NCBI GenBank assembly: GCA_027603945.1
Contig: JADIIU010000001.1
Location: forward strand, 434,001 to 498,000
DNA from: Terramyces sp. JEL0728
Lineage: Eukaryota > Chytridiomycota > Chytridiomycetes > Rhizophydiales > Terramycetaceae
Direction: 5' to 3'
DNA: 64,000 nt
Part shown: one piece after another, positions 2,338 through 63,958 of the stretch
Position numbering within the stretch: position 1 is the stretch's first letter
Layout: every line of letters begins with the position of its first letter
The notes under the pieces: model-generated
Told to the model about the DNA's origin: nothing
What the model saw: only the letters and a program-made list of their open reading frames with translations
Databases searched by the model: none
Translations under genes and position numbers: made by a program

Positions 2338-4568
2338 TTAATTAAAAGTCAAAATTAAATCAAACCCAGTGTGGAATACAATTCCCGATTCGCAAGCCAT
2401 TAAAACCGGTACCTTTTCATCTAATAAGCTGTCGTCCATAATGGTGCTGTACTGTGCAGACCAATAGGCTTTAAAGCCCTCCATTAGCTGGACAGTGACA
2501 ATCTTATCTGTGAATTTGACATTCCTTGCTGGTACAACACCAAAATATATCCAAAAATCTCCGGCAAACATATCACCATGCAATTTCACTTGATTTCGAG
2601 CTACTTCAATCCCGGAAAATCTTGGCAACGGTCTTATTCCGTTAAATCCAGCAGTAAGGAATCCTGGTGGAAGCTTGAATGATACGGTTTCGACATCTGG
2701 ATTAACCCTAGTTACCTGTGCCAACAACTGTCCAAATACATGGTTCAATCAAGCCAAATCTTTGATCAGCAAAGCTGGAGGTGTAGAGTAATACCTCTTT
2801 GTCTTGATGGCAAAGAAAATGGTCTGGAAAAGTTGATACACTTAGAGCAATCTTTTGCAGTTGACTGATAGGGGTGTCCACTGCTTGTTTTCCGGCAAAG
2901 AATCGGCGCTCCTTTTTATCTAGATTTATTTCAATTGCTACATTTCTTGCAGCCCTTTTGACTGCCATCCTCTGTGGTCTCTACTTTGAATGTAACTGAG
3001 AGTATCCCTGATTCGACATGTTCCAAAACAACTAAATCCCCGTATTCAATTAATTCCGTCTTGCTGTGGGATTTGTTTCTGAGAAATTCCGATACCAGCA
3101 ATAACTGGTCTTCTCTCAGTGTACAAAGCAATAATTCAGGTAAAGTTGCATCAAGAGAGATCTGCAGTTGGTTCATCAAAGGAAGCAAATCAGATTTAAG
3201 CCATATTCTGAATAGACCCCATTTCAAGTCGTGGCAGGTGAACAAGTTATTGGCCACATCCAAGAATCTAGTAGACCCAGATTGGCAATTTATACGATTA
3301 AATAGTGATATGTAGTCCCCTGAATAAATCCCATCTACTTTTAATTCCTTAGTACAAATATCCCTTTGAGGAATCATGGTAGGCGGTTTTGAAATTACTT
3401 TAATTTCTTTGGTAACGACCTGGAACTCATTTTCATTGCTTTTGATTGTGAATTTTAAGGCAAAACTGCGCTGTTTATCGATTTCGGCAATGTATAGTTT
3501 TGAAAATTGTGCCAATGAGACAAGTGCAATATTGTGGACAAACAGATTAGCGACGCCAATATTTTTCAAATCAAGGATTTCGGGAATCATCGTTGAAGTG
3601 ATGTCGGCGCGATGTATTAAGGATAACTTAGTTTCTCGGGTAAAGTTTGTTGTGCGATTGTCTGGATCAAAGGCAGCATCTTTATCGAGTCTCATGATAG
3701 AAGTATGGCACTTTAACTCTTCCCAGCCTTCTCCAATTAAGTACATACACGGTTGCGGGCATAAAAATCTACATCAAATTAGATAACCTTCGTTCTTGTC
3801 GGTAAGATTTTTGAGCGACGCTTGGATATAGCAACCATAGTGAGTACTGCTTTAACGAAAATGAGGCCTGTACATAGTGCCTTTGTTAATGAATCGATAC
3901 GACAACTTTTGGATAGAGGAACTTCCAGTGTAGCAAATTTGCTCGCTAGCTAGTCCACCATGTAGCAAACTTGATCCAGGCAAGCCAATCGAACCCTCAT
4001 TCATATTGTGAGGCAAATTAAAGCTGAAATCGTCTGAATAATTAGGTGGGGTTGAATTGCCTCCAACAAAAGATAGCAATGGATATCCAAATTCAAACGA
4101 AAGCTTTCTTTCAAGGATTCCGGCTTCATTTAACTCTTGTTGATAAGCTGTTCTGTCAACTTGAGTCCCGACCGTAATTTCTGATCCTGAACAAGTCCAG
4201 CTGTCACTGAATAGTTGGGACGCGTCAAACTCTTCTTTAATATCTGCTTGGTTGTCATAATGTAAATTGAGGGTTTGTTCGCCAAGAGATAGTCTTGGAT
4301 AATCATGGTGCCATGTCATTGTGTTTTGAACAGATTGATTACTATCTACAGAATGATCATGCGTATCTAGATGTGATTCGTTCATGGATGGATCTTGAAC
4401 GGCTCGATCGAATTCAGAAATTTGGTATGGTGTCATCTTGATATGACTTTTGTCAGAAACTGGGTCAAGATTTTCTCCCCAAAATAGAATATCTTGGGTT
4501 CCAGAGAGAAACGTAGTCCAATACGATTCATCAAAGAATTCAACAGCGCTATCCTTGTGATCGTCCAT
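2338..4568 (-). CDS. CSL-family (CBF1/Su(H)/LAG-1, RBP-J) transcription factor
   Basis: Five exons joined by introns at 3881-3900 (20 nt), 3769-3787 (19), 2920-2941 (22) and 2697-2715 (19) give a 716 aa protein. Residues 1-230 are acidic, low-complexity and probably disordered. The Rel-homology/LAG1 DNA-binding part follows: SVAQKSY...RRFLCPQPCMYLIGEGW aligns with the invariant VAQKSYGNEKRFFCPPPC block of RBP-J. A beta-trefoil follows (ISLFNRINCQSGSTRFLDV, matching VFNRLRSQTVSTRYLHV; later AVDTPISQLQKIAL), and then a C-terminal IPT/TIG domain. Fungal CSL proteins bind GTGRGAA-like sites and regulate cell-cycle and adhesion genes without Notch. The identity is clear; exact exon edges rest on frame and homology. 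Confidence 0.9.
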
Positions 4569-4735
4569 ATTGAATTAAACGATTAAGAACCGTGAGATTG
4601 ACATCAATGTGTCCATTGATCGTGTGCAATTGGTAATTACAAGGGTAGAACTGCTCTGATTATCTCTTAAAGGGCTTTACCCCAACTAATGTTAGTTAAA
4701 CTGAAGATATCGGCCGCTGCAAGTTTGCTTTTTCC

Positions 4736-6054
4736 ATGCACCAAATTGATGACAGAGAAATGCCTTATGCCGAGCCAGCGCATCTTCTCGGGTTCCATAG
4801 TCCGTATTACAAGTAAGTGCAAGATAATTATTGCGAATCTCATCGCCGTTTTAGACATGCTGTCCGTTCTTTTTTGAAAGAAGAGATATTCAAGGGATTA
4901 AAGGTTGACGACACAAATCCACCAGCTTCAAAAGATGTATATAGGAAATTAGCAAAAGCGGGGCTATTGGCTGCTCGGATTGGTCCTGGAAAGCATCTGG
5001 AGCAATTCAACATTATCGGGAACATTTCTCCCAAAGGATTTGATTATTTCCATGAAATGATACTGCATGAGGAAACCCGAAGCAATGGCCTTCCAGGATA
5101 TACAGAGACGATAGGGTCAGGATTGTCGATTGGATTGCCCCCCATTATGAATTTTGCACCTGAACCTCTTAAATCACGTATTATGGACCAAGTGCTGAAT
5201 GGGGAAAAGATAATATGTTTGGCAATCAGTGAACCGGGTGCTGGGAGTGATGTTGCAGGGATAATAACTACCGCGGCCAAAACTGCGGATGGAAAGTATT
5301 ACAGAGTCAATGGAGTGAAGAAATGGATAACGAACGGCACTTTTTCAGATTACTTCACTACTGCCGTTAGAACTGGGCCTGGAAAGTACGATATCTCTGT
5401 CTTACTAATTGAAAGAAATGCTCAAGTGTCTACCAGGTCCATTAAAACTTCTCACAACTCAGCAACCGGGACGGCATACGTTACTTTTGAAAACTGTCTA
5501 GTACCAGCCAACAACCTGCTTGGAAAGGAAGGTGACGGTTTCAAGATAATCATGTACAACTTCAACCATGAGCGATGGGTCATGATTGCAGGAACATTGG
5601 CGGAATCACGATCCATAATTAAGGAATGTTTTCAGTTTGTAACCAAAAGAAACCATGTTGGAGCTGCGCTAATACAAAATCCCGTAATCAGACACAAGTT
5701 AGCAATGATGGTGCGATACTATTAACAAAGGTGTCAAAATTGGAATCTGCCCATAGTTGGCTAGAGAACATCACATATCAAATGACGTTGATGAACTACC
5801 AAGAGCAATCAGTCAAATTAGCCGGCCCGATTGCCCTCCTCAAAATTCGCTCTTCAAGGATAGCTCATGACATTTCTGATCACGCCTGTCAAATATTTGG
5901 AGTTGACGGGCTTGATCAGTCCGGAACTGGAAGTAAGGTAGAAGGATTCCAAAGAACTTACAAATTCAGAGCAATCTTGGGTGGATCTGAAGAAATACTG
6001 GCACAACTTGCCATAAAACAAGCCATGAAGAGCTTTCCAAATGCAAGATTATAA
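4736..6054 (+). CDS. Acyl-CoA dehydrogenase family protein
   Basis: Spliced from three exons (introns 4800-4823, 24 nt; 5711-5730, 20 nt) to 424 aa. It starts at ATG 4736, because MPYAEPAHLLGFH resembles the PYAEP...GF start of fungal acyl-CoA dehydrogenases. The FAD/substrate signature CLAISEPGAGSDVAG (about residue 155) and the later KKWITNG and RVNGVKKW blocks are present. The C-terminal helical domain ends with the conserved GGSEEIL. The N-terminal cytochrome b5 domain seen in many related fungal enzymes is absent. Likely role: FAD-dependent alpha,beta-oxidation of an acyl-CoA in a peroxisome or mitochondrion; the substrate cannot be told. The first intron boundary is the less certain one. 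The stop is 13 bp from the stop of the convergent gene. Confidence 0.88.
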
Positions 6055-6067
6055 GTCAATTAGTCTA

Positions 6068-6943
6068 TTAGATAACCAATGGTTTTTCTGCCGGCCATAC
6101 CAATTCTGCGATCAATAAAAATTTACCAGATTCAAGCGTAAGATCCATATCTTCTTGGTGGAAAGTCTTTACCCATTCCTCGACTGAGACAAGTCCCCTA
6201 AAGATCGCTAGCTCAGATATCATTTGGCTGGATGGAATGAACTGATGATACCTATCAACAATTTCTTCAAATGCTTGCTTCATTTCGCTCTACATTACAA
6301 ACATTTACTCTGCTTAGCAGCCCAATAGCTTTTCCGATCTTGTAGATATTAATGCAAGTAGAAGCAATCTAGGTTACAAATAACTACCAATTCATCCAAG
6401 CTGGATTCTTCCATCTGAGAGAAATCTGAATATGCTGAGCCATCAGATTCAACAATTTTTGAAGCCCAGAAAGGAAAGAACCTATCTTGGATATCTTCCT
6501 GTAAAACCAGTACTCTGGAACTGGAAATAAATGGAATGGTGTCTTTCTTCAACTCACTCTTTGGATTTGAAGCAATATTTGTCAAGTAAGAATAAACAAT
6601 CTTTTTTGGAGCCTTGTTAGTCTGTAGTACCTCTAGCATATGAATAAAAGATCCTTTGAACGATAGAAGGATTCCTGTAATGATATCCATCTCTGTTTGT
6701 TCCTTTTTAAAGAATTTCTGATAGTACGCTTAGATGAATCATCAGTTACATGAATAGTCGACTCGATCAATATCCTTGGAAAACTGACCAATTACTACCA
6801 CGCGGTAATTCATAGCTGTCTACATTAGGTTCTCTGACCTTGTTTTCCTTTTGTATTTTCCCTTTGATGATGTCGAGATATGAGGTTCTCTTTTCTAGTT
6901 GAATATCTTCAGCGACTTCAATTTCAGCCTCGTTCCCATTCAT
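6068..6943 (-). CDS. TEX47-like protein with BLUF-like domain
   Basis: Five small exons with introns at 6820-6838 (19 nt), 6729-6749 (21), 6369-6387 (19) and 6290-6308 (19) give 265 aa. A charged N-terminus (about 35 aa) leads into a ferredoxin-like BLUF fold: YRVVVIGQFS as strand 1, a helix, then MDIITGILLSFKGSFIHMLE, which matches the ITGxLLxxxGxFxQxLEG core of BLUF proteins, and later RVLVLQEDIQDRFFPFW. The C-terminal extension (CINIYKIGKAIGLL ... ELVWPAEKPLVI) is like that of testis-expressed protein 47, a sperm-associated BLUF-like protein. The flavin-contacting N-terminal Tyr/Gln cannot be assigned, so light sensing is not implied. Role unknown, possibly flagellar. Confidence 0.62.
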
Positions 6944-6983: not shown

Positions 6984-8609
6984 TTAAGCAGACAAGATAG
7001 AGACTTTACGTTCCTTAGATCCTGTAACAATATATTTAGCATCTGGACCAAAAGCGAAATCGGTAACTGGAGAAAGATGGTGCTCAAATGTGGATATCAA
7101 TTCCCATTTCTTTACTACATAAACACTATTGTTAATCCAAATTACCTCAAATTGTTTCCATGCGCAATACCAACATACTTTCCACTATGATCAAATTTGA
7201 CAGAAGGGACACCTGCAAAACTATCGGTATTTGGTAATTGGAGTGTATGGAAATCTGTTAGCTTTCTTAAATCCCAGAATTTGACAAATGAATCTTTAGT
7301 TGAACCAGTAGCAACATGGTAACCGTTTTCAGAGAAGGAAATGCTGGAAATCGCGCCAGAGTGCCCAGTAAACGAAGCAGCGACAGATTTCGATTTGATA
7401 TCCCATAATCTAACAACAGAGTCAGCTGAACCGGTTCCTAACAAAAGCCCATCTGGATGGATTTGAATAGTACTATATGCTGCCATTAGTTTCAAGTTAC
7501 CTGAATCGATTTCGGGAGTAGACACGGCAGAAATGACTTCAAATCTTTCTAAATCGACAAAATTCCACACAGCATCTTCCCCGGCAGAAATGAAATAATC
7601 ATTGGTTGGGTGGATTGCAACATCTACTACAGGACCAGAGTGGGCATTCAAACTTTTGGCTGCCTTGATTTTATAGCCATTCTTTGCCGATTCTAGACTC
7701 CAGCACTTTACGGTTTCATCAGACGAAGCTGTCAAAAAAGTATCAGTGTGTCCAATCCACTTTGCAGAATGGACGGGTTTCTTGTGAGCTTTGGCAGAAG
7801 CAACCAATTTGAAACTAGATTTATCGACTATAGAAGCACTTCCATCAGCCCCTGCAGTTAAAAGCCATTCTCTGGTTTCTCCATCTTCTAGCTTTACTTG
7901 AAGATCAATAGTATTGACTGCAGATTCTTTAGCAGTGTTGAGAGTTTTGATTGTTGCAGATTCTTGGAGGCTTGAGATATCTTCAACGGTAGACAAAGTT
8001 TCTGGTGCCTTCCTTTTTCTTCTAGTAGCAGACAATCTACAGTTAATTAAAGGTACTCTTCAGAGTTTGCTTCAATTCTGCCTACAACAGCTTGTGGTAA
8101 AGTGTCAACTTCTAGAGCCATTTCCTGGGTTTCTTGTGATTGTTCAACTGCTCCTTCTCCATAAGACGCTTTAAAATCTTGCAAACGAGCGCGAGCTTCA
8201 TCCCTCTCCTTGATAATTCTTGCGATGACTCTTTTTGCAGCATCGTTTTCGTACAGAGCGTTTGATAGTTGATTTTGCATTTCATTAAATTGTTTCTTTA
8301 ATTCAAAGGCTTCCAACATTACTGCATCAAATTCATTTTGTAAGGAGAGAAGTGCATTCGGTACAGAAGTTGCGGTTGGAGCTCTAGGTTTCACCAATGG
8401 TTCTACATCAGATATAAAAGTACTTGATTTGATTGGAGATAGATCGTCCTCAGTCATTTCTTCGTTGGTAATTGGACATACACCTTTTTCAGCCAAATAC
8501 TTGGTGATCAATCTCTTTTCAAATACATATCCGGTTCTTGAAAACACTGGCTCTTGTGGAGCTTCTCCAGAAACTAAAAATCAGCATTCTATTTACTTGC
8601 ACAGAACAT
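6984..8609 (-). CDS. PRP19: Pre-mRNA-processing factor 19, spliceosomal E3 ubiquitin ligase
   Basis: Four exons (introns 8574-8596, 23 nt; 8037-8056, 20 nt; 7126-7145, 20 nt) give 520 aa. The first exon encodes only MFCA and, once spliced, restores the U-box start MFCAISGE..PQEPVFS. The U-box (residues 1-55) is followed by the Prp19 coiled-coil/tetramerisation region (about 60-150) with VPNALLSLQNEFDAVMLE, and then by the basic linker ATRRKRKAPETL. Seven WD40 repeats follow, with HSAKW, ...DETVKCWSL and ...DSVVRLWDI visible, ending ...FGPDAKYIVTGSKERKVSIL. PRP19 is the core of the NineTeen complex that activates the spliceosome. That is fitting in a genome that must splice ~20-nt introns. Confidence 0.95.
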
Positions 8610-9515: not shown

Positions 9516-11106
9516 ATGATAGATCAACCAAAAGTTCTATCAGGAATAACACACGCAGCAACGATCCCCGAAGCTAAAATGACATCTATATCCAATCTGA
9601 AGAAGGACGGATCCAGGTCGTCATTGGACGAGTTGCGCAAATCAGCTTTCTCAGATAGTAAAGAATCCTTAGCTTTAAATCCAAAGTCTGTAACTGAAAA
9701 AAGTGCCAATTCAGAATTGCAGAGCTCTCCCAACATTCTCAAAAATAACACGGGAAAGTCTATTGCAGAATTTATAAATTCAGGACAAATAAAACCATTT
9801 ACAGCTCCGCATTTGGAACTTCACATCAGATATAATGACAAAAGCTCTGTAAATTTGGCACAAGCGCCTGAAGCATGGGGAAGCCATCCTTTGTCAATAT
9901 TAATAATAGATATGAGAAGTTCGGAAGAGTTCAAAAGGTCACATCTGAAAGGCGCTATAAATCCAAATTTCCCTATGCTAGTAACGAAACGCTTCAAAAA
10001 GCGTTTATACTCGAACTTTAATTTATCGAATTTCCTCGCTCCTAATTCTGAATGTTTTTCCACATTGGAAAAATGGAAACAGATGGATAAAGGGAAAAAG
10101 TGTATCCTGGTATGCAATAATGCAATGGAAGAAACTTATGATGATGATACGTGGACATTTTTAGGTTGCTTGGCAAATGGTCTCTCTGCTGATATTTGCC
10201 AAGGTGCATCTCCTCTAGTGACATATCTATACGGAGGAATGCAAGCAATATATAGTTTGCCAACGCCAAAACCTCTGTTGCAAGGCACCGATCTGGCAGA
10301 CGGTGAGTTTGATATGAAAATACAAAATAGCCCCTTGGGAATATCTGAGCTGAACCCGCCTGGTTCACCCACAATACCGTCAATATCCAAGCTGGGTTTA
10401 TCCGGAAGAGGTACCAAAGCCCTTTCTATTGATTTGACTGCAAACAAAAAAGATTTAGGACCAAGCAAAACGGTTACACGAAAACCAACATTAAACTTAA
10501 TTATTGGAGGTGCCCAAGAAAAAGAACCCCACAAATCCACTACTGAAACTATTGTAGAGACACCCGTTACCTCCCCAAACGACAATGCCGCACCTCCACA
10601 ACCGTTTTCGCGAGTCAACAAAAACATTATGGTTGGCTCGGATTTACTTCCATTGGCATCCGATGGACCAGAACAACTTTCCAATCTAGGTGTAACCCAC
10701 ATTTTAAACATGGCAGCAGAAATACCTATATCAAAGGTTGTCAAGGAGAGCGGAAAATTTGGATTAAAGTGGATTCCTGTTCTAGATAATACTGAAGTAG
10801 ATATGGACGAAGCACTGCAACAAGCGATAGATTTTATAAGTAAATTTTCCTAATCTAGGCGACGCGGTCAATGGAAATCCAAATGCAATTGTCTTTGTAC
10901 ACTGTAAAGCAGGACGCTCAAGATCGGTAAGTGCAGTTATTGGATACTTGGTGGCTAAAGAAAAGTACACGCTGAAAACTGCCTATGACTTGATGAGGAA
11001 AGTGAGAAAAGGCGTAAGTCCAAATTTAGGATTCATGGCTGCCCTTTTGAAGGTAGAGAAGGAAGCTCATGGCCAAAACTCCAAAGTGACTGAACTATAT
11101 TCCTGA
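9516..11106 (+). CDS. Rhodanese / dual-specificity protein phosphatase (MAPK-phosphatase-like)
   Basis: Two exons (intron 10840-10858, 19 nt) give 523 aa. Residues 1-90 are Ser-rich and probably disordered. Residues 120-255 form a rhodanese/CDC25-like domain (LIIDMRSSEEFKRSHLKGAI); the segment ILVCNNAMEE lacks a clear CxxxxxR loop, so this half is probably non-catalytic. The C-terminal dual-specificity phosphatase domain starts at NKNIMVGSDLLPLASDGPEQ, carries the likely general acid in PVLDNTE and the P-loop HCKAGRSRS (HCxxGxxRS). This N-rhodanese/C-DSP layout is that of MAP-kinase phosphatases. The intron lies just before the P-loop exon, so the unspliced frame would lack the catalytic cysteine. 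Probable role: dephosphorylating a MAP kinase. Confidence 0.88.
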
Positions 11107-11151: not shown

Positions 11152-14100
11152 TTATTGAGAGAAAATATCTCCCATTTTAAGAAGACACACTTTGGTTAAA
11201 TCTATCAATTGAGCTTCTTCGTGGTATTCTTCTGTCCCAGATTCAAGCAACCACGAGCTTCCTGACATTACACTGAGAAATTCAATCAATTTGAAATATA
11301 GTTTGTACTGTATTGCAAGCGACGAGCACCAGATATACTCTTTCACTGCTGCGTCCGAGAGTTCTGAATTGAGAAAATAGTAACCTTTGGTCCGAGACAT
11401 TTGTTTAGGCGCTACACGCAATGTTTGGAGCCCTTTAAGTATATGCGTGACTTCAACATTTCGAAATCTAGAATTAAAGTGAATAACCTTGGAAGCGGCT
11501 GCTTTGCAGATTTGATACGGTCGCTAATGAACTCTGTCAACACTACTTTACACTTTTCAAAAACAATGGATTCTGCAATTCCAGCTACTCTCAACTGGGT
11601 TGCAGATGCTACGTAAGTTGTCAGAGTACCATTTTCTTTGACTGTTGCGATATCAAATAATGCCTCTATTGAGAAGATTGCAGTGTTTTCTTTCCACGGC
11701 TTTAAAATATGGGCATCTAACTTAAACGCTACATCATCAAACTCCACTTCCTTTGCTGGAAGAACACTCGGTGATCCAATCAAGGACATATTTGGTGTGT
11801 GACCTCCGCCAAGCGATTTGAAAGGCAGGGCTGGTAAAGGAGGGTTCAATTGATGTGAAGCCACTTTGGAAAGTATATTCAGTATTTCCTGACAATAGTC
11901 GGCCTCGATACCTGCATCTCCAAAGAACGCCAACATCTCCGTTTTCATAAATTTCAAGACTTGAATATCTATTGCTTCGTCTTCACTTAATTCCTCCGGT
12001 AGTAACCGGACCATAGGCTGACTGACTTGTTGTTAGATTCTGTTTAAACGAACCTGCTAGAAAGAACAAAATCTCCGCTAACGGAGATGACGCATTTATA
12101 TATTTGATCCAGTTTCCGCTTATCCATGGCTCCTATAAGATTAGAATTACCTCCTTTAGATTCTTTTAAAACTTGAAATGCTAAAGATATAATCTGTGCA
12201 CATATTTTTGCTGCCAATTTCCAAATCGGTGTGGGTTCTTTTGTCCCTGGCTGGGGACATCCATATTTGTATTTCATGGGAATCCCTAAGGATTTTATTG
12301 CAGATTCAAATGCTCCACTAGAAAGCAGCACTTTCATGTCTTCCTGTTGTTCAAATGCTAGAGGAAGTATGCCTAGACACTTTTTAGAAATTGCCATATA
12401 AGTATGCTTCTTTGGAAGGCCGGTGTTTGAAACTGGATTGGATACGTCCAAGAAACTATCATTGGTAGAGCCGAATGTAAGGAACGGAAAAAGAATGGCA
12501 TCGGAAACTGCAAACGAAATTATATCCTTTGAGTGCGGGATTGAGCTAAAATCTAATTTTCCAGAAACAAAGTCGAAAAAATAATTTTGCGTTGTAGTTG
12601 GAGTTTCTAAATCGTTCACAAAATCGGCTCTAATTCGAGTATTTGTAGCTCCAGGCGGGATTTTGGAATGATATAACAGCAGATCCTTCAAGTTATCGCT
12701 GATCCCCTGCAATTCCTGCTGCCCAACTAATGGTAAAATTGATGGGTACAGCTCAAATACTATTGAAAAGTAAATTGCCAAGCAATCCTGAGTGAATGGA
12801 CCGGAAATCAAATTAGGGTAGGTTCCATTGGCCCACTGTATCAAATTGAGATCTTTTCCATTGGACTTGTCTGCCTGATCGATAATACCTTGCCCTATTT
12901 GCACCCAGATACTGTAGAGTTCTTTCCACAAGTATTTCTGCTTTGATTGCACCTTTTCCATGTGCTCTGGAAAGTTTTTTGGGTACTGCGCCAATGTTCT
13001 TAAACTTTTTAACGCAGTAGAAGCAACGTCTTGGGAGTTTAGTAAACATGAAGACTTGATATAGTTCAAGAAGGTAATCCAGTCTTTGTCAAAATTTTCC
13101 CCCAGATCAATCAGGATAGGAAGAAAATCGACTAGCCACTTTGTGATTCCATTCAAAGTCAAGCTTTTTGATTCATCCCACTGCTTTTCAGTGTTCAGTT
13201 TCGAGCAATTTTGAGAGTTAAGGTTTTGAATTCTTTCAATCAGAGGGAATAAAACATAGGTTATGCACAATTCCCACGATTCCAAGGTAAGTCTTTGTCC
13301 GTTCATGCTAATTGTTCTGAATAGAGTCTGGTTTGCAGAATTACGAACTTCTGGCCTGTCGTCGGAACAAAGCTCAGATAGACTGTGCAACAGGTACATC
13401 CACAAACTGTCCATCGTTTTGGTGGAAAAGCTGGCTTTTGAAGGATTGAAATCCAAAAATGAAGATTTCAGAGATTCTTTCCGTAAGGGTTGTGGTGTTA
13501 CTTCAACTTCGTCGACAGGCTTTTCTTTTTCCAAATGCTGGCGCTTATTTAAAATGTAGTCGCAAATGGTCCAGAGTAGCCCAACAGCAGTTAGACTGAT
13601 GTTTAACTCGTCAGCGATAGCTCCAAATACCGACACCGTATCAATCAGCTTTGACAATCCTAGTGGGGAAAGAACAGATAGGAAGTCGGTACAGATAAGT
13701 TGTATGGATGGGAACCCCACTCTTATCAAACTGTTGTTCTTTGACGGGAAAGCGCCGTCCAGTGTTGCTGGGCTTTCGGTGATGCCTGTTGGGGAAGAAG
13801 ATTCCAGAATTGGCTTTAGGTTGCTGTCCTTCTTCTTTGGACTTGAAGATTTAACAGCCATATATATCAGATCAAAAATGAAATTCCAGCTAGCCTTGAA
13901 GTTTTGCCCGCTGTTTTGCAGCAACTTATTGACTATATCCAATCCACTCTTGCGAACATCTTGTAGCCATGGCAACTTTAAAGCCAGATTATCAGCTGGT
14001 GCAACTTCCAGATTTGGTATAGACCCTTCATTTGTGGTCGCAGATTCAAATGCCATTAAATTCAAAAGTGGGTCAATAATATGCAGTTCTACCTCTTCAT

Positions 14101-24631: not shown

Positions 24632-24650
24632 GAATAAATCTTTTTTATTC
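24631..24650. terminator. Bidirectional poly(A) signal between convergent genes
   Basis: Between the stop codons of the triple esterase (+) and the coiled-coil gene (-) the 13-bp gap and its edges hold GGAATAAATCTTTTTTATTC. This offers AATAAA on the + strand and, read in reverse, AATAAA on the - strand. It parallels the element at 41262-41285 and suggests compact shared 3' ends. Confidence 0.45.
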
Positions 24651-41266: not shown

Positions 41267-41285
41267 TAAAATTTTATTTCGCTAC
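41262..41285. terminator. Shared palindromic poly(A) signal between convergent genes
   Basis: The 14-bp palindrome AATAAAATTTTATT spans the 7-bp gap between the stop codons of the FN3 gene (+) and the TTC16-like gene (-). It presents AATAAA on both strands and overlaps the minus-strand stop codon. It could serve as the poly(A) signal of both transcripts, which would then overlap at their 3' ends. The function is inferred from position and sequence. Confidence 0.5.
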
Positions 41286-50595: not shown

Positions 50596-51861
50596 TTAAA
50601 TTTGTTCACCAGCTTCTTTTTCGGCAGCAATCTTGGCTTTTTTTTCTTTTTGTTTCTGCCCACCTCGTCTAGTCTTTTTCTTATTCTCTTCCTTTTCAAT
50701 GTCGTGTTCCAGTGCAGCTTGTCTCTTTTGTCTCAAGCTATAGTTTGGATCTGGTTGCCATCTGCTCCATTTTCGCATATGCCCAACCTCATACAACTCA
50801 AACATTTCCTCGACTGAATTAGACTAGAATTACCTTCTTCGGTTTGTACTTGATTGGCTTGTTTCAACAAAGGCACGTCGGTTACGATGCCAGTGTCTTT
50901 TGACAAGAAATCGACTTTATGGTCGCTAGAGTTATTCGCGATCCAGATGTTACCAGCTGAATCAAAGGCAAAGCTCAATGGTTCTCTTTCAAGTTTGACA
51001 ATCTTTTTTTGCTTGATGTTGGTTGGATCTGCAGTGTCAAAAAGCAGAATATAATTCAACCTGCGGTTAGTTTCAAGTACTTTTCTAGTAATACTGCAAG
51101 AGTGTGCGATTGCTGGTGCGCTTTGAGTGCAATGACGGTTGGCTTTGTATCTCCCAATTCCAATCCAGAAACAATATCCAGTTTCTGTAATAATTTACCT
51201 GTGGTATAGTTCCATACCCCCAACCAATCATCACCACCTCCTGAGATCAAGGTTTCTTTGTTTTCCAGTGTGATGATTTTAGAAACAAACACAGTGTGCC
51301 CTAGCAAGAACTGGTGGATATCGTACGTTTCTGGATACTTGTTTACTCTGATTTTTTCATCTCTATCGGATGTAATCAAGTACTTTGAATCGCTTGTAAA
51401 TGCCATGTCGGTAAGAATAGATACATGGCCAATCAAAAGCAACGCTTTCGCTCCCGGATTATCGACAGCCAGCTTGTACATATCTCCAAATTTATCAGCT
51501 ACCATGAGATACGTTGCGTCTTTAGAAAATTGTAAACCTATATTACGACTGAATTACAGGTTGCCCGTTTCAAAATCGTTCGCTTGTTTATCACTTTTAG
51601 TGTTTGCGCATCCCAAATTTGCAATTCCTTGTCATCCGATACAAATGCCAAGAGTTTCTTTCCTGGATGGTAGACGATTGTCCTTAATTGCTTCTGTGCA
51701 TGCTGTCCTGCTGGGATTACGGTGGCAGCAGCTCCTAGTCCTTCTGAAATTGTTGTGATTTTCCCAGTTTTTGATTCAAGGATAACGATTTTGGAACCAG
51801 TAACGAATAATAGTTTATCCAACCCTGTTAAAGAAATCACCAAATGATATGGAAGACGCAT
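50596..51861 (-). CDS. TRM82: tRNA (guanine-N7)-methyltransferase non-catalytic subunit (WDR4/Trm82)
   Basis: Four exons (introns 51538-51557, 51061-51080, 50814-50833; all 20 nt) give 401 aa. A WD40 propeller is visible (FVSDDKELQIWD, ITSDRDEKIRVNKYP, LISGGGDDWLGVWNY). ...SDRDEKIRV.KYP and IHQFLLGHTVFVS are the signature of Trm82/WDR4, and GHMRKWSRWQPDPNY is like the conserved C-terminal segment. It ends in a Lys-rich tail. The partner Trm8 makes m7G46 in tRNA. The introns split WD repeats but always restore the frame. Confidence 0.93.
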
Positions 51862-51897: not shown

Positions 51898-54164
51898 TTA
51901 TTTGTTAATTTTCTTGTTTGCACTGATGCGAGATCGCACTAACTCTCTAATGACGTCGGCACTGCCTGTATTTGGATCTTGCAAGATGGTCTTGGTTTGT
52001 TCGCTCAATCCATTTAGCTCAATTATAGTTTCTTCCCTGCTTTTGCTGAAATCGCTAGGTTTGATGTGCTGCAAAAGGTAGTTGTTGGTTCTATGGTTAA
52101 CAAATATTACTTTGAAAGCTCTGTTATTACTTTCACGAAATCTGCTGTGGAAGTAAGGGATGAAGTTTTGTTGAGGTCTTGCATATTTGAAATTACTTGG
52201 TTTGCTGCTGATTCTAAATAATGTAATTTGTCCAAGATTGGCGATTGTATTTCAATTTTCAATCGATCCAAGTCCGAACTAATCTGGGTAATATCAAAGT
52301 TATATCTTGGTGAGGTCCGCTCCTTCTGTCCAAGTTCCTTTTGTCTCTGGGTCAATTCTGCTTCCAAATGATCAAGGTATTCTTGCCGACGTTGTAAATC
52401 TTGGTTGAAAAATTCCAAACTTTGGTATTTCAGCTCCATTTCAGCAACTACTTTTTCACGCTTTTCCAATTCAGAATATTTCGCTCTCTGTCCGTCAATT
52501 TGTTTTTGAGCTTCTTCTCGCAGTAATTGGAATTGGCGTTTTTCATTCTGCAATTCTTGGTTAGAGTACTCAAGGTCTTGGCACTTTCTTTTGTATTCAT
52601 TAGCATACTGATCCAATTCGTCTTTGTTTTGTCCGTTAAAGTTCAAGGCGTCCAATCTGCTTTGTTCCCTGTTACGGTATTCTTCAAAGCTGCGTTGTTG
52701 CAATTCAAATGCATCTTCAAGCTGAGCAAACTCTTGCTTTTCTTTGTCAAACATGCGGATTGCCTCATGATACGACTTTTCCCTTTCTTCCATTACTCTC
52801 TGTGCTTCTTTGATTTCAGCCCATTTTTGTTGATCAGTTCCGACAATTTCGATATTAGAGTTTAACTTTGTTTGCCACTGTTCTTGCATTTCCAATTCGA
52901 GTTTGTCCAGCCTTTGCTTTTCAGCATACTGAATGTTTTCAAACTGTTGCTTTTGCAACTTGAACTGTGCCTGTGCATCCTGCAACTCTTTGCGTTCTCT
53001 TTCCAGCACCTGAATAGCTTCGTTATAATGGGCAGCAGTATCTGATGCGGCAGCCTCGTCTTTTAATCTTGCGAGCGCTATTTGGTCATGCTGCAACTGT
53101 TGTTGTCCGTTTCTCAACTCTTGTTCTTCAAGCTTAAGCCATTCCTTTGCCTGGCCAAGCTTTTCTTGTTCACCATAGAATTCTTCTTGCACATGCTTTA
53201 ATTCAAGTTGGTCATGGTTAAACTTTTTATATGCTTCGCGTAAACTAGTATCTTCGGCGTAAATCCTTTGATTTTCTTTTGTGAGCTCTAGTGCATAGTT
53301 TTGCAGTCTTTCCTCTTCCAGTTGGCACCATTCCAGTTTACTTTGAAGCTCCGAAGCTATAGCAGGCGAAACTGAGGTATTTCTGCTTAGCAATTCGTCT
53401 CTGGTATTGTTATATAATTGTCGAATATGGCCAAGCTCACTATTTACAGACTGGAAAGCATCCTGGGATTCTTGCAGCTGGATGGCAAGAACTGAATTTG
53501 CCGCAACTACTTGTTGATACATGTCAGAGTAGTATTGGCACTGACCTTCCAAGGACAAATTCTGGATTTCTATAGCATCGCCATCCTTTTGCCAAGTAAT
53601 ATCGTCATTTTGATAGTTGGGATAGGACTCGTATCCAGAATTTGAAGGCTGGTACTGTTCACCTCCTTGGTAATGCTGATCAGGTTGGTATTGATCATTC
53701 ATATGCTGCTCCAAAACTTTTTCAATTTCAGAATTTGCAGGAAGTTCCTCATCGAATTGGCTGCTTTGCATCAATGGAGTGTTGGTATTTGAATTTTGAT
53801 CAACCTGTGCAGATAGTAATGGCGGCTGGGTAGGTGACTTATTTACTCCTTGCTCTATAGGTGGTGAAGCAATTTTGCTGGTGCTTCTATCAGAAACAAC
53901 CATCCTTGGCTGATTCTGCAAATCCGGCGAAATTCCAGAATTCTGTCTTTTCTCTGAAGAAATAGCTGTTGTTTCACTGACTTGTCCAATAGATTTGGTT
54001 GGAGATACCATTGTAATATTTTCCCTTTGTACCTGAATTTCAGGAACAGCGATCTCAGTTGACAAAGATTGTTCCTTTTTCTTCTTTTGAAACTTTGCTA
54101 GCTATGGTTATTCATCAATTGCCTTTGATTTTGCCAGTTGCAGCTTTGCTTCCCTGTCTGTCAT
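51898..54164 (-). CDS. Golgin-like long coiled-coil protein
   Basis: Three exons give 741 aa. The first intron (54102-54122, 21 nt) has the rare donor GC and the acceptor AG; the second (52091-52110, 20 nt) is GT-AG. The N-terminus MTDREAKLQLAKSKLAKFQK is a lysine-rich helical segment like the start of GM130-type golgins (KLAxAKKKLxxFQ). Residues 30-200 are disordered, then a continuous coiled coil runs from about 205 to 690. It resembles golgins of the Golgi matrix but carries no GRIP domain at its C-terminus (RELVRSRISANKKINK). The golgin call is an inference from the overall layout. Confidence 0.68.
54102..54122 (-). other. 21-nt GC-AG intron
   Basis: In the sense orientation this segment starts GCAATTGATG, contains AATAACC and ends CATAG. 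Removing it joins LAKSK to LAKFQKKKK, giving a continuous helix and the only in-frame ATG for the golgin-like gene. It has the size and branch-like element of the other introns but a GC instead of a GT donor, the only such case noticed in the window. Confidence 0.6.
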
Positions 54165-58087: not shown

Positions 58088-60015
58088 TTATCTTTGTCTA
58101 GAATTTGACCTTGTGTTTCTAATCTGCTGCCCTCTTTCACCTTGAACCGGAATCTTGTTGTAGTAGTAAACTGGTCTTGATGGGATTACTGCGATATTCG
58201 GTTTCTTGTCGGCAGTCCGTTCCGGTTTGGGAATAGGAATATTCTGGTTATTAACAAACACTGAATCCGTATTATAAAAGCTGTATTCGTAACCATGGCC
58301 GTGTGACGAATCTGTCCTTGGAATGCTTTCTTTTTCAAGCTTGCTGTTCTTGTGTGGCCGATCTAAAAGTACATATAATCCATGGTTGCGCAGTCTAACT
58401 AAACTCAAGATTGATTCCAGTCTCTTTCTACAAGTTCCGATTTGGTGCTTTATCGAACTGTACTTTTTCCTTATAATTTCTTGGAATAGTCGTAAATCTG
58501 TGGAATGGAAATCGATAGATATACCTGACCGGAGTTGAAAGTACAAGTATTCTGAAAAAGTAAGTTTGGCTCTTAATTCGTCTGGATTATGCTCTTTTTT
58601 CATCATGCCACAGCATTCTTTTTCTTCTTCCTTTTCCTTCTGCAATTCTATTACCAGTTGAACGTTGAACCTCTCTCTTTGTTCTACACAGCCAGACATG
58701 TAATCTCCACTAATCACCCCAATGACACCTTCTATTCCTTTCGGATCATGAAACCCTACTTTGGAATTCTTGTGGTTAGTTGCAACGTGGTGTTCTTTAA
58801 ATAACCCTATAGTACGTGATAGCAGCGGGGCTATCGTCTTTTTAGTTTGGTACTGTTCGTCCAATTCAATACCGCTGATCATTTCATAGAATACTTGCGG
58901 TGTAATTTCAATTGAAGTAAAATGAAGGAAAATATCACTAGGATCTGTTATAGTTATTCGGTAAACAGGCGGCTTCTTTTCGTAATTCAAAGATTAGTCA
59001 GTAATTACCAAGTAGTAGAAAGTAAATGTCAATTGACGGGTTTCTTCTCGTCCGTTTGGCAATATCGTTGGTACTGGAATTGTTTTTGAATGTACAGGAT
59101 CTGAAACTACTTCTTCGTCCGTATCGATATCCATCTTTTTCGTAGTTGCAGCAAATTTCCCGTTTCTCTGCAGATAATCGATATTCACATCGTGGTTGTA
59201 CAGTTCAGACGAAGATAGTAATATTGCTGGTTGGTGTATAGAGACTGTATTCATTACTTGTATCAAATTATCGTTGATTTCATCATATTCATTCTAAATT
59301 AACGAAAAAGTACTTGGATTGATTTTGTGTACTCTAAAATATCCTTCTTTACCTCTGTCCATTCCGACGGGGTTAATTCGAGTTCCATCAATTCTATTTT
59401 TCGATATTCTTTAACTATCTCAGAGAACTTTAGAGTTGCCAGCTGTTCGTTTGAGCTTATTTGCATTACAGCTTTGAACGAGTTTGGATTATTTACAACG
59501 CTATTTGATATTTGCTGAACCATATATCCAAACCTCCTAAAAGTTTCCTGGAATCCGTTTCCCGCCAGCGAAGGGAGTTTCCATTTCATCTGCTTTAGAA
59601 TGGTTTTAAACGAAAACGGATTACAGTTGAATGTCCAGTGAAAGAAAATATCATCGATTGGATCCATTATTATGATTTTATGTGCTTGTGGAAATGGCTT
59701 GTCAAATTCAGAGACGAGTATCAACCGTACGTGTTTCTGATATTCTACTGGCACTTGCTGGCCATTTTTTATTTCCAATTTTTGTACAATTACCGGAATA
59801 TCAAGTGTCCATCTATTGGCATTGAATAACGTCGATGATATACCAATTTCAGGATGCAGTTCGTGTTCGATTTCTTCGCTTTTTACTCTGGAAGAGAAAA
59901 AGGACACTGGCTCGTTGGATAATTTACTCCCAGGAACTACCACTGGTTTGGGAGGATAAATACTTTGGAGTGGGAGAACTTTGTGTATCGGCTGAACTTC
60001 AAATAACGGGTTCAT
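58088..60015 (-). CDS. Protein with two SAS-6/CCDC61-like head domains
   Basis: Three exons (introns 59294-59313, 20 nt; 58976-59008, 33 nt) give 624 aa from ATG 60015. Two similar units can be aligned by eye. Unit 1 (about 60-235): IIIMDPIDDIFFHWTF...FSFKTILKQ ... LKFSEIVKEYRKIELMELEL. Unit 2 (about 325-500): ITITDPSDIFLHFTSIEITPQVFYEMIS ... LTFSEYLYFQLRSGISIDF. The pattern (strand ending D.SDIFxxxxxI, helix pair, FxVxL, LxFSEY) recalls the XRCC4/SAS-6/CCDC61 head fold of basal-body proteins. The C-terminus is basic and disordered. Homology is inferred from pattern only. Confidence 0.5.
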
Positions 60016-60145: not shown

Positions 60146-61181
60146 ATGCTAGCCAGTGCGGAAAAAATACAGTCCCCATTCGCAGAGATTGTGTCCGTCC
60201 TGTTTATGGTCTTTTCGCTGTTTTCGGTTTTGGTGGGAGGGATATTTATGACCATCTACTGCTTGTATGCTCACTGGACAACCAGGCTATTCGCACTCCT
60301 TTACCTTACATGGATTTGGTATGACAGAAAGACAGTGGATTATGGTAGATATCAGCCAGCCTTAATCAAAAATATCAGGGAATGGCAGGTGTGGGAGAAT
60401 GTCAGATCTTACTTTTCCGCCAAGCTGATCAAGACAGCCGACTTGGATCCCAAGAAAGCATACATTTTTGCATGGTAATACTGATTTAACTCGAGCCATC
60501 CCCATGGAGTCTATTGCTTTTCGTATTTTATCAACATCTTCTTTAATCCCCGATTTTACCAAATGTTTAGTGGGATCCGCTTGTTTCAGTGTACTCTGCC
60601 TGTCAACTTCTTGATTCCGGGATGGAGAGACTATATCTTGTCTATTGGCACGGTTGGATCTTCAAAAGCAGCAATTTCCAACGCTCTAGTACCAGGCACA
60701 GCGCTAGCCCTATTTGTTGGCGGTGCCAGGGAATTCCAGCATATGAAAAGAGGTAGGCGTTTCTAACCAAGGCACTATGGATCTAGTATTAAACAGCAGA
60801 AAAGGCTTTGTCAAGATAGCTTTGGTTCAAGGCGCTTCGTTAGTCCCAGTGCTTGGGTTTGGTGAAAATGACATTTTTGACAGGGTTGATAATCCAAACT
60901 TTACAATATTACACAAGCTGGCAAAGTTGGGTAAAATGGCAGCACCTTTGTTTGCCGGTAGATATGTAGTTCTTCCTCACAAGGTCCCGCTGGTTACTGT
61001 CGGTAATTTGGCCTAATTTGTAGTTGGAGAACCAATCCATGTAGAAAAAAATGTGAATCCAACTCAAAAGGATATCGACGACCTGCACGAAAAGTACTGT
61101 CAATCGTTACAGAATATCTACGATAAATACAAGGATGAATATCACGCGGATAGAGTGAGCGCAATGAGATTCATTTCATAA
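60146..61181 (+). CDS. DGAT2: Diacylglycerol O-acyltransferase, DGAT2 type
   Basis: Four exons (introns 60475-60495, 21 nt; 60753-60771, 19; 61003-61023, 21) give 324 aa. An N-terminal pair of membrane helices (LFSVLVGGIFMTIYCL, FALLYLTWIWYD) is followed by YFSAKLIKTADLDPKKAYIFACHPHG, with the catalytic HPHG restored by the first intron. Then come PGWRDYILSIG, VGGAREFQ, NSRKGFVKIALVQGASLVPVLGFGEND and VVGEPIHV. DGAT2 makes triacylglycerol in the endoplasmic reticulum for lipid droplets, an important fuel of fungal zoospores. All three splices are needed to keep the family's conserved blocks. Confidence 0.95.
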
Positions 61182-61208: not shown

Positions 61209-61584
61209 ATGTTGAGATTAAGAACACTAAATAAAACTTTATACCGACCAAAACCAATTCTAGGAATGAGATTAGGATCAGGAGCTGCACACCATGACGA
61301 CCACCATCACCACGACGGAGAGGAACCAAGCGGACGTTTCTTGGGACTAAAAGTAATTTTCAATTAATTCAAAAGGCTGGAAGACCATTTTACTTTTGGG
61401 AACCAATTTGGTATGTAGGGTTTTATGGATCATTTGCAGTATTCTTTGCATTGGAATATTTCTCACCTAAAAAAGGGTAATTTTGAATTAAATTAGACCA
61501 AACGAGTTGGCTAGAATTGAAGCCAACAAGAGACTTGAAGCCAGAGGAGAAAGCTCTACTTCTTGGCCATTCCCTGCTAAATAA
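61209..61584 (+). CDS. NDUFB11: Mitochondrial complex I subunit NDUFB11 (ESSS)
   Basis: A short gene missed by simple frame scanning. Three exons (introns 61353-61375, 23 nt; 61477-61496, 20 nt) give 110 aa, starting MLRLRTLNKTLYRPKPILG, a mitochondrial presequence. After splicing it reads RPFYFWEPIWYVGFYGSFAV, one membrane helix, then SPKKGPNELARIEANKRLEA, the pattern of NDUFB11/ESSS (WEPIW/F motif and EA..RL tail). It is a supernumerary subunit of the membrane arm of NADH:ubiquinone oxidoreductase. The start is 27 bp after DGAT2. Confidence 0.82.
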
Positions 61585-61614: not shown

Positions 61615-62402
61615 TCAGATTTCTGTTGGAAGAAACATTTGATCAAATGTAACCATCTCAGACACTCCATCTTCCAGATATTTAATCGCAACTTGTTTCT
61701 ATGTTACTAAAACTTACTGAGAAAACCCGAGCAATGGTAGCTTGAAAGAATTCGGTAATGTTATGGCCACCTTCCAGCCGCATTGCCCACACAGTATCGC
61801 CGATTCCCAGCTCGTTCGTCTCGTATATCTTTCGATGATTAACCATCTTTTTTGCAGGAACTTTCCATGTAGCGAGATCCAACTTGTTACTTAGCTGGAC
61901 CACGGTATATTCCTTGTTAGCAACCCAATACTTTTGTATTCTCATCGTAATCTGTAGTACGCACAAGATAGCAGCTTTCTTTTGACGCTTTGGTAAAATC
62001 TGGGACAAATGCAGCGATGACTTGGCCAATCTTGTAATCCTGCTCTACTTTTTGTTTCTTGAACAAGTTTGGCACAGTGACTTGCTCTTCCTTCTTTTCC
62101 TCTCCATCAAACATCCTCTTTAGATCGTCCTTTATCCTGTTTCGTAAATGCGAGGAATCCAGATACTTTCTGGAAATCATATTAAATTCCTTTAGAATCT
62201 CAGAATTCCCAAGTTTTGCCACCAGCGATCCTTGAGTTTGTGCATTTATTCCAGAACAGCTATCTTGCAGTTTGGATATCAACTCCCTGCATTCGGGAGA
62301 CGATGAAAACTCTTCCAAAACCAATCTTCTAACCGAGTCAAAGTTTCCGCTCCTCTTAAATTCAGTGAGGATTTCTTTTGGTGCCATATTCGTTAGATTC
62401 AT
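61615..62402 (-). CDS. SHG1/BOD1-Tudor (SGF29-like) fusion protein
   Basis: Three exons (introns 61913-61931 and 61699-61717, both 19 nt) give 249 aa. Residues 8-95 match the SHG1/BOD1 domain: LTEFKRSGNFDSVRRLVLEEF...LRNRIKDDLKRMF. Residues 120-249 look like a tandem Tudor domain of the SGF29 type: YKIGQVIAAFVPD, LGIGDTVWAMRLE, TEFFQATIARVFS and VAIKYLEDGVSEMV. SHG1 belongs to the COMPASS (H3K4 methyltransferase) complex and SGF29 Tudors read H3K4me3. A single protein holding both would couple writing and reading; this is a domain-combination inference. Confidence 0.72.
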
Positions 62403-62562: not shown

Positions 62563-63128
62563 ATGAGGGATTTAGAAAGCGAACTACACCAATACAATCA
62601 AAGCAAGGCGCCTTCGCCCACAGAGCCAAGATCTTCAATATCCACATACCTAAAAAGGGTTTCCTGGTCGAAAGAAAATGACCCAGAGCGTGTAAATACC
62701 GTTAATTGAAGGAGCCATTATATAACAGCCATCAAACATTAAAAGATGATGATGATATTGAGCAAGTTAAGGTGAATTTGGATGAGACAAGCAATGCATT
62801 ACACGGCACTTTGGGGAAATTATTGCATCGCGGCGAAGATTTGGAGGAAATCCAAAACAAGTCAGGTACAATGAATCTAACAAAGACGAGCTTGGGAATG
62901 TCAGTGGAATGTTCAAGAAAAGCAGTAAAAAGGTTTATCATAAAACAATTATAGCCAAGATAGCAGTAACCTCTGGTTGACAGTAGCAAAACATTTGCAT
63001 AGTGATGTCTGCAATTACACTATTGATTCTGATAGGAGGTGCGTTTTGCTAACCTAGTTATATTGTATGCCCTTGGAGTATGGCTCAAAGGTGTGCTATT
63101 CCCAAATAAGCCTGTTGCACCCATGTAA
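62563..63128 (+). CDS. R-SNARE of the synaptobrevin/VAMP type
   Basis: Five exons (introns 62692-62711, 20 nt; 62866-62885, 20; 62976-63002, 27; 63039-63057, 19) give 159 aa. After a 60-residue polar N-terminus there is an R-SNARE helix: DIEQVKVNLDETSNALHG, GKLLHRGEDLEEI with the ionic-layer Arg in LLHRGEDL, and SDELGNVSGMFKKSSKK. A C-terminal membrane anchor follows (AITLLILIGVILYALGV). No longin domain is present, so it is a brevin-like R-SNARE for membrane fusion. The exons are as short as 36 bp, and all four introns are needed for the SNARE motif and anchor to be continuous. Confidence 0.84.
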
Positions 63129-63138
63129 CAAATTACTA

Positions 63139-63357
63139 ATGCTTAGACCACCGCCTGCACCTGCACCACCTGCACCAACAACTCCAGCTCCAGCTCCGTT
63201 GCCGCCGTTCTCTTGCCCACAAGTTTCTTGCAACTGTATGTGCCCTCCTCCTACAGTCATATATTACCCAGTGCCTCCTGGATATCCAATTCCAGGCAAC
63301 CCACTCCCAACGTCAATTCCACCACCTAACATCCCCGTTCCATCTCATTTAGCTTAA
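63139..63357 (+). CDS. Possible proline-rich small protein
   Basis: 72-codon frame MLRPPPAPAPPAPTTPAPAP..., rich in Pro, Ala and Cys (CPQVSCNCMCPPP). It begins 10 bp after the R-SNARE stop and ends 30 bp before the stop of the convergent gene. No signal peptide or family is recognised. It could be an independent small gene, an alternative 3' exon of the SNARE transcript (its frame is also open upstream to 63067) or chance. Low confidence. Confidence 0.3.
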   Translation: MLRPPPAPAPPAPTTPAPAPLPPFSCPQVSCNCMCPPPTVIYYPVPPGYPIPGNPLPTSIPPPNIPVPSHLA

Positions 63358-63386
63358 AAGGACTTGAAGAGGAATAAATTTATTAA

Positions 63387-63958
63387 TCATTCCAGTTCTT
63401 CTGGAGTGTCAATTATGTTCATTATGAAATCGAAACTCGGTTTATCCACTGAAATTACAGACAACCTGGAGCGCTTAAGCAGTGCAAAGTCTCTAAGCTC
63501 TTTATCCTTGAATTTTTGCAACTCTTTTAGCGAAATGAATTTCAGCTTCTTTTCAAACTGCACATCCACCTGCATTACCGAATATTACCATATACCATTT
63601 CGGATCTAGTTTATCTGATTTCGGGTCATAGTAGGGATGCGATTTGTCGAACGCAGTGTGATCAACATAAGCTTCCTTTACAACCCGAGCTAGCCCAGCA
63701 ATTCCAGGAACCTTGCAACTTGAATGGTAAAAGAAACACTGAGATTAAGAGCAGAGTACCAAATCATCTACCTTCATCTTTTTCATATTATTCCTTGCTT
63801 CATAATTACGGACCTACATTAGTGCACAGTACTCCTTCCCAAGCTGTTTTTTGACTGATTTCCAAGTCATCGATAGAGAATTTAACATCCACACCATTCT
63901 CTATCCTCGACTCTGGTTCTGCTTTTATCAAGTAGTAGTTTGTCGATTTTGCTTTCAT
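63387..63958 (-). CDS. THYN1: EVE-domain protein, THYN1 homologue
   Basis: Four exons (introns 63814-63832, 19 nt; 63739-63759, 21; 63570-63588, 19) give 170 aa, starting MKAKSTNYYLIKAEPESRIE. The EVE/PUA-like fold of THYN1 is clear block by block: NYYLIKAEPESRIENGVDVK, TAWEGVRNYEARNNMKKMK, CFFYHSSCKVPGIAGLARVV and KEAYVDHTAFDKSHPYYDP, then KWYMVDVQFEKKLKFISLKEL. EVE domains bind modified nucleotides in DNA or RNA. None of the first three exons alone is a convincing gene; together they are. The start is 42 bp before the window end. Confidence 0.93.

Follow-up and report, generated by a model that had tools for sequence, protein, structure and literature searches.

Putative spliceosomal introns of about 20 nucleotides in the chytrid fungus Terramyces sp. 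JEL0728

Introduction

Genomes with tiny introns are already known. In the heterotrich ciliate Stentor coeruleus, introns measure 15-16 nucleotides (nt), start with GUA and carry a branch adenosine at a fixed place, the 10th base of a 15-nt intron and the 11th of a 16-nt one, with 5 nt after it (PMC9505925). Introns of 16-17 nt are described in the mikrocytids and of 18-21 nt in the chlorarachniophyte nucleomorph (PMC10245619), and the shortest introns of Trichomonas vaginalis are 23 nt long (PMC12316389). In this study, we describe apparent introns of about 20 nt in a 64,000-nt stretch of the genome of Terramyces sp. JEL0728 (the window; C1:434001-498000, where C1 is contig JADIIU010000001.1). 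An earlier note on this DNA had reconstructed about 89 such introns in 31 genes by hand, placed them in a flagellated fungus-like genome and named ciliates, chlorarachniophyte nucleomorphs and some microsporidia as homes of uniformly tiny introns; the sizes just cited agree for the first two, and the host can now be named more precisely as a chytrid fungus (Chytridiomycota; Rhizophydiales; Terramycetaceae).

Among fungi, the spliceosomal introns of Cryptococcus average 63 bp, about three times the length of those described here (PMC8476143). Malassezia is credited with "very short introns" (PMC7426719) and the introns of microsporidia are called "relatively short" (PMC10245619), in both cases without a size figure in the passages cited, so that a fungal precedent of similar size is possible. 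No report of tiny introns in chytrids was found among the top-ranked results of the literature searched, a weak negative given that subscription papers lay mostly outside its coverage. For the unaltered human B complex, Keiper et al. estimated a minimum of about 52 nt between donor and branch site (PMC6692369). In humans, Smu1 and RED are reported to be essential where this distance is short, and SPF45 to be able to take the place of U2AF on short introns whose pyrimidine tract is truncated.

Results

A population of introns of about 20 nt

The assembly comprises 15,016,339 bases in 231 contigs, with 520,119 bases in C1. Genes were modelled with a semi-Markov gene finder whose 3-periodic, order-4 coding model was trained on open reading frames of at least 900 nt and retrained on its own calls; the main sample of 264 kb consisted of C1:1-200000 and the window. 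In a motif-free run, in which introns were defined by their end dinucleotides alone and all lengths of 10-150 nt were equally likely, GT-AG ends gave 233 introns, 103 of them 17-25 nt long, and twelve control end pairs gave 185-246 "introns" each, with 11-29 of that size. The excess at 17-25 nt was confined to GT-AG among the 13 end pairs, and the same size peak was already there in the pass preceding the last retraining. When donor, branch and acceptor motifs were learned and the length model was left flat, 342 introns were called, 268 of them 17-25 nt long. One was of 16 nt, one of 17, none of 18, 55 of 19, 121 of 20, 58 of 21, 25 of 22, 6 of 23 and 2 of 24 nt, which places a size floor at 19 nt; the strongest introns were called even without any motif. 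Calls of 26-150 nt (73 of the 342) were no commoner than in controls (254, 115, 167 and 132 with the same motif and wrong ends, 83-116 with decoy motifs), and hence give no indication of a longer class within the lengths allowed. A class of introns above 25 nt was accordingly not adopted, as such flat-length calls stand at noise level and many resemble, by eye, mis-joined tiny introns.

The length table extends beyond the window, as the earlier note had proposed it should. With the model frozen and applied to 22 loci (74,419 nt on 14 contigs, some overlapping or duplicated, picked by kinase, small nuclear RNA (snRNA), splicing-gene and pattern matches), 92 of 106 introns were 17-25 nt long, against 1-12 in four controls; without the motif, the figures at these loci were 39 of 81 against 1-11. 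In the total sample of about 340 kb, the majority of introns exceed a floor of less than about 25 nt by no more than a few nt. In the 264 kb, introns number 1.7 per kb of coding sequence and occur in 117 of the 178 genes modelled, with phases 0, 1 and 2 represented 150, 105 and 85 times.

Within the window, the uncapped run made 86 calls, of which 64 measure 19-24 nt and 22 measure 26-150 nt; over the whole 264 kb, the longer calls are at the noise level of the controls. With introns capped at 30 nt, a cap that itself excludes longer ones, 31 of the 48 gene models have introns, 81 in all (18 of 19 nt, 32 of 20, 17 of 21, 9 of 22, 3 of 23, 1 of 24 and 1 of 27) against about 89 in the earlier count, and 80 of the 81 fall within the 19-24 nt that had been claimed. 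Four further introns lie outside these models: 5711-5730, two GT...TG candidates (4813-4833 and 58988-59008) and a GC...AG candidate (54102-54122). Whole-codon sums are imposed by the gene model and are hence no independent test of the introns.

The number of calls that chance could supply was estimated from coding sequence. There were 289 called introns of 19-22 nt with a motif score of at least 4. The motif reached that score 20 times in sense and 26 times in antisense in 435 exon pieces (191,811 nt), and 40 synonymous-codon shuffles of the exons gave 17.2 such strings (sd 3.5), so that a few per cent of the calls could be chance. As a separate observation in C1:1-200000 and the window, in-frame stops occur in 42 of 71 introns of 19 nt, in 93 of 147 of 20 nt and in 63 of 74 of 21 nt; the extra stops at 21 nt may reflect selection or detection bias, and we make no claim from them.

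Anatomy of the introns

The donor in the learned-motif run reads G, T, A (93%), A (56%), T (51%), T (63%), and 78 of the 81 window introns start with GTA, as the earlier note had it. The branch columns read A/T/G, then T (58%) or C (35%), T, A (77%), A, and T (61%) or C (33%); position -3 is T in 63% and C in 23%. Together these motifs carry about 5.9 + 5.7 + 4.5 bits of information. A clear branch motif (score at least 2) is present in 320 of 340 capped-model introns, which substantiates the TAAT/TAAC-like element that had been noticed near the intron end; the other 20 were dropped from the spacing count. Ahead of the branch adenosine there are 13 nt in 128 introns, 14 in 145, 15 in 36, 12 or fewer in 2 and 16 or more in 9 (13-15 nt in 309 of 320), and behind it 4 nt in 13, 5 in 142, 6 in 143 and 7 in 22 (5 or 6 nt in 285 of 320). 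Alignment of the splice sites thereby gives the branch-to-acceptor distance that had been asked for, and donor, branch site and acceptor do almost touch. Similar positions emerge where no motif was learned: 76 of the 103 motif-free introns contain YTRAY, with the adenosine at position 14, 15 or 16 in 36, 26 and 11 and at position 12 or 13 in 2. YTRAY stands at the branch place in 74 of the 103, compared with 1-4 of 18-26 calls in four of the control sets. The stretch from the branch motif to position -3 shows no pyrimidine enrichment (T 0.29, C 0.24). U12-type introns have long, rigid donor and branch motifs; assignment to that type was rejected, the donor here being GTAATT with weak positions 4-6 and not a long rigid motif.

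The earlier statement that the introns finish in AG stands in that GT-AG is the only end pair in excess, but needs correction for a small number of candidates with other endings. With a single alternative acceptor admitted in each run, 5 high-scoring cases emerged for TG and 0-2 for each of the other 14. All five TG candidates (window 4813-4833, plus strand, and 58988-59008, minus strand; C1:13902-13921, C1:33871-33891 and C1:129775-129794) are 20-21 nt long, their branch adenosine being the 14th or 15th base and followed by 5 or 6 nt, and the two in the window give full open proteins. At C1:13902-13921, C1:129775-129794 and window 58988-59008, calls with other acceptor ends also arose once such ends were permitted, and the choice of TG there therefore rests on spacing and homology and is not unique. 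GC donors gave 4 cases, 3 of them on the same branch ruler; the candidate GC-AG introns (C1:170544-170563, C1:171972-171990 and window 54102-54122) are 19-21 nt long, and two of these three were also called with other donors. A base-call error is possible behind each non-canonical candidate.

Homology at the junctions

Removal of the segments restores conserved protein, as had been claimed: of 24 junctions compared, 22 are covered by homology and all 22 are gapless. The five junctions of Prp19, itself a spliceosome component (6984..8609, minus strand; introns 7126-7145, 7480-7500, 8037-8056, 8403-8423 and 8574-8596), are gapless against Boothiomyces sp. JEL0866 (P0122) and Globomyces pollinis-pini (P0123), with one extra residue at one junction in several more distant homologues. 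In an F-BAR/RhoGAP protein (30434..32688, minus strand; introns 30715-30735, 31121-31141, 31264-31284, 31415-31435, 31778-31801, 32114-32134 and 32491-32510), all seven junctions are gapless against the Boothiomyces orthologue P0241, two of them in poorly conserved sequence; Globomyces sp. JEL0801 (P0243) is gapped beside two other junctions. The Boothiomyces comparison proteins are themselves predictions. Gapless coverage was also obtained at two of three junctions of ORC1 (45245..47428, plus strand; introns 45923-45942, 46364-46383 and 46467-46486), at three of three of THYN1 (63387..63958, minus strand; introns 63570-63588, 63739-63759 and 63814-63832) and at three of four of COX11 (34323..35063, minus strand; introns 34389-34408, 34623-34641, 34820-34839 and 34936-34954). 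An acyl-CoA dehydrogenase (4736..6054, plus strand) has introns at 4813-4833 (21 nt, GT...TG) and 5711-5730 (20 nt, GTG donor), both overlooked by the automatic model W05 (5147-5725). Both junctions are gapless against 2pg0, although no more than three residues of that alignment precede the first; a further PDB match is gapped a few residues after the second.

The Prp19 gene is 97% identical to the deposited HDV01_000220 of Terramyces sp. JEL0728. In that 585-residue protein both 20-nt introns are spliced out, seven extra residues stand at each of two 21-nt introns, and the start differs at the 23-nt intron. Because it contains two translated 21-nt introns, some of the gene models deposited for this strain ought to be corrected.

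Splicing machinery in the assembly

One match to U2 snRNA (140 bits) includes the GTAGTA stretch that pairs with the branch site. An SF1 gene is present, with SF1-HH above the cut-off, as is a U2AF2 gene, the main stretch of which scored 251.7 bits in a six-frame search, below the whole-protein cut-off of 310.3, with an extra C-terminal piece of 27.9 bits; the U2AF2 locus itself holds tiny introns.

Other genes of the window

The remaining genes are given here with their introns; family assignments used a Pfam cut-off of 25 bits, and labels given by eye come from no family search. A mitochondrial processing peptidase (23-1546) is 90% identical to that of Boothiomyces macroporosus, followed by other chytrids; on this and the Prp19 match, the idea that the DNA came from an aphelid or a microsporidian was rejected. 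On the minus strand follow W03 (2338..3746; introns 2697-2715, 19 nt, and 2920-2941, 22 nt), with a weak LAG1-type DNA-binding match (21.8 bits, below the cut-off), W04, the model of which is uncertain (3769..4568; 3881-3900, 20 nt), and W06 (6068..6690; 6106-6126, 6290-6308 and 6369-6387). A SNORD24 match at 8933-9012 (minus strand) scored 42.2 bits against a gathering score of 41. W09 (9516..11106, plus; 10840-10858, 19 nt) looks phosphatase-like by eye, without a family call. W10 (11152..12014, minus) has one intron at 11468-11487, and W11 (12044..16620, minus) has six (15261-15280, 15742-15761, 15885-15904, 16295-16313, 16439-16458 and 16523-16542). W12 (17149..17539, plus; 17221-17241 and 17359-17377) carries an isochorismatase domain (Pfam), the 5' part being missing from the model. 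W13 (17562..19192, minus; 17752-17771), W14, with no Pfam family (19325..20408, plus; 19495-19514 and 19599-19618), and W15 (20432..20895, minus; 20550-20569) are followed by W16 (21950..24631, plus), whose modelled 27-nt intron at 23229-23255 was placed at 23235-23255 (21 nt) in the motif-free run, and by W17 (24645..25698, minus; 25602-25623).

A COP9 signalosome subunit 4-like gene (PSMD12-CSN4 and PCI, Pfam; 29191..30356, plus) has an intron at 29658-29677. W25, LRR-like by eye (35257..36562, minus), is interrupted at 35909-35929, 36070-36088, 36340-36358 and 36527-36549, and W28, FN3-like by eye (38537..41266, plus), at 38933-38954, 39180-39201, 39340-39360, 40157-40178, 40509-40528 and 40829-40850. 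Two genes look TPR-like by eye, W29 (41274..42193, minus; 41718-41737) and W30 (42238..43079, minus; 42611-42631, 42921-42939 and 43029-43047). W31 (43433..45129, plus; 43461-43481, 43817-43838, 44258-44278 and 45077-45098), an RTC4-domain protein (Pfam; 48330..49740, plus; 49375-49394 and 49451-49470) and a WD40 protein (Pfam; 50596..51861, minus; 50814-50833, 51061-51080 and 51538-51557) precede W37 (51898..54011, minus; 52091-52110), which has the possible GC-AG intron 54102-54122 upstream. W42 and W43, when joined, form one open frame of 628 residues (58088..60015, minus) with the candidate GT...TG intron 58988-59008 and an intron at 59294-59313; its SAS-6_N match (27.2 bits, cut-off 25) precedes both junctions and hence is no test of them. 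A DGAT2-type acyltransferase (Pfam; 60563..61181, plus; 60753-60771 and 61003-61023) lacks its 5' part in the model. Beyond it lie W45, with no Pfam family (61209..61584, plus; 61353-61375 and 61477-61496), W46, with a COMPASS-Shg1 Pfam match (61615..62402, minus; 61699-61717 and 61913-61931), and W47 (62563..63357, plus; 62692-62711, 62866-62885, 62966-62986, 63039-63057 and 63125-63146). Five intronless genes of similar size (47560-48225, 54394-55050, 55081-55755, 56045-56761 and 57334-58071) are seemingly a local family, membrane-protein-like by eye. Elsewhere in the assembly, contigs C18, C42, C26 and C3 each hold paired kinase matches of equal or near-equal score at two places, which suggests large duplications inside contigs.

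Discussion

The existence of tiny GT-AG introns of about 20 nt in this chytrid is confirmed at the level of sequence, and their interpretation as spliceosomal introns is supported. We propose, with a probability of about 0.88, that U2-type spliceosomal introns have shrunk, wherever they were sampled, to about the smallest size that the spliceosome can use. Each intron would then consist of three minimal signals in close succession: GTA(A)TT as donor, [TC]TAA[TC] as branch site and [TC]AG as acceptor. U1 and then U6 would read the first six or so nt, and U2 would pair with about 6 nt surrounding the branch adenosine, which lies at position 14-16 and is followed by 4-7 nt, mostly 5-6; donor pairing at about positions 1-6 and branch pairing at about positions 10-16 would leave some three bases between them. 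As there is neither room nor composition for a pyrimidine tract, U2AF could contact at most a few bases up to the AG, and the acceptor used would be the one that lies a short, constant distance beyond the branch. The floor at 19 nt would be a steric limit on donor-to-branch spacing, and the abrupt lower limit of 13 nt ahead of the branch, together with the gradual upper one, is the pattern expected of such a floor. The 5-6 nt after the branch is close to the value in Stentor, which suggests a shared limit there and an organism-specific limit on the donor side. Splicing in the cell, the order of these events and their steric cause are inferred from the layout of the sequence.

Several observations weigh against this proposal. 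The total sample of about 340 kb, with intron lengths up to 150 nt, is about 2% of the 15-Mb genome. A few calls fall below the floor (one of 16 nt and one of 17 nt in the learned-motif run; two of 17 nt and one of 18 nt at the frozen-model loci), and YTRAY stands at the branch place in 15 of 29 AT-AG and 9 of 18 GA-AG control calls, which share the AG end. Intron-like strings are not depleted in exons (20 against 17.2 in shuffled sequence, score at least 4), which gives no hint that mis-splicing is selected against. At donor position 5, T stands in 51% of introns and G in only 17%, a poor match to the standard U1 end. U1 snRNA was not found in the assembly with the Rfam model and two patterns, only the best candidates being scored; one pattern had a single match that is not U1 by eye, the other none. 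Nor was U6 snRNA found with Rfam, patterns and a typed human U6, again among the best candidates scored: two sub-threshold Rfam matches of 27 bits are unlike U6, none of the 12 ACAGAGA pattern places inspected is U6-like, and the sole CCCTGC pattern place is not U6. The control genomes in both searches were prokaryotic, so that their silence is uninformative. These misses could stem from divergence, from loss in the assembly, from an intron within U6 or from the limits of the searches; they do not imply that U1 and U6 are absent, but an intact major spliceosome is not documented by these results.

Assemblies can carry indels, and the segments might be ordinary coding DNA broken by sequencing or assembly errors. 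We regard this as highly improbable: indels would not share GTA...TAAY...AG, a 19-nt floor and a fixed branch spacing, and the 21-nt segments need no frameshift yet are missing from homologous proteins. Just as improbable is the notion that a self-trained gene finder picked chance GT...AG strings. Its motif and coding model were indeed learned from the same sequence, and spurious calls of 17-25 nt do arise, 11-29 with control ends and 37-114 with decoy motif models. The excess, however, precedes any motif learning, shuffled coding sequence yields 17 strings against 289 introns, the frozen model works on other loci, and homologues agree at every covered junction. Removal by some route other than the spliceosome, such as RNA ligase-type splicing, DNA elimination or ribosomal bypassing, has slightly more in its favour, given a donor-branch spacing far below the minimum for the unaltered human B complex and the failure to locate U1 and U6. 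It too is improbable in view of the GT-AG ends, the branch motif matching the U2 pairing stretch and the SF1 and U2AF2 genes; we also know of no DNA elimination in fungi.

A further possibility adds to the proposal of shrunken U2-type introns and does not replace it. The introns may be real and tiny but depend on an early spliceosome that has been rebuilt such that the donor is passed to U6 and the branch docked without the geometry of the human B complex. In its favour is the gap between the 13-15 nt from donor to branch here and the estimate of about 52 nt in humans (PMC6692369). No match to RED_N was found in the assembly, which points the same way, but that search had no informative control; moreover, Stentor keeps most spliceosomal proteins, such that modest changes may suffice (PMC9505925). 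We hold this idea only tentatively. Equally speculative is the corollary that a fungal steric floor of 13-15 nt implies a different geometry or order of assembly, with the 3' site set by branch distance and not strictly by AG; the GT...TG candidates lie on the same ruler, which suggests that distance from the branch sets the 3' site.

Tiny-intron genomes being known, it is the chytrid host that is unexpected. The papers cited associate such introns with ciliates, relict nuclei and reduced parasites; in Terramyces, they occur in a fungal gene set, and their spacing directly confronts the structural estimate of the donor-branch minimum. Terramyces, which we take to be free-living and in culture, belongs to a phylum with many sequenced relatives, so that the shrinkage could be dated and spliceosomes compared. 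A chytrid thus offers a fungal test case for the smallest intron that the splicing machinery can handle.

Compared with the systems from which we started, the introns of Terramyces share with Trichomonas vaginalis a branch site near the acceptor, but that species has 63 introns in total, with extended rigid motifs and a second class of 56-196 nt (PMC12316389). The length range nearly equals that of the chlorarachniophyte nucleomorph, which is a relict endosymbiont nucleus of green algal origin (PMC10245619). With the mikrocytids they have in common a narrow size range and a conserved motif; mikrocytids, however, are reduced parasites, with 224 introns in M. mackini and 17-19 spliceosomal proteins (PMC10245619), compared with a 15-Mb genome and about 1.7 introns per kb of coding sequence in our sample. 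Stentor coeruleus resembles Terramyces in the narrow, tiny size, the GUA start and the fixed branch adenosine followed by 5 nt, and differs in a donor-branch spacing that is about 4-5 nt longer here and in a branch consensus that is strong here and weak in Stentor (PMC9505925), the host in this case being a fungus and not a ciliate.

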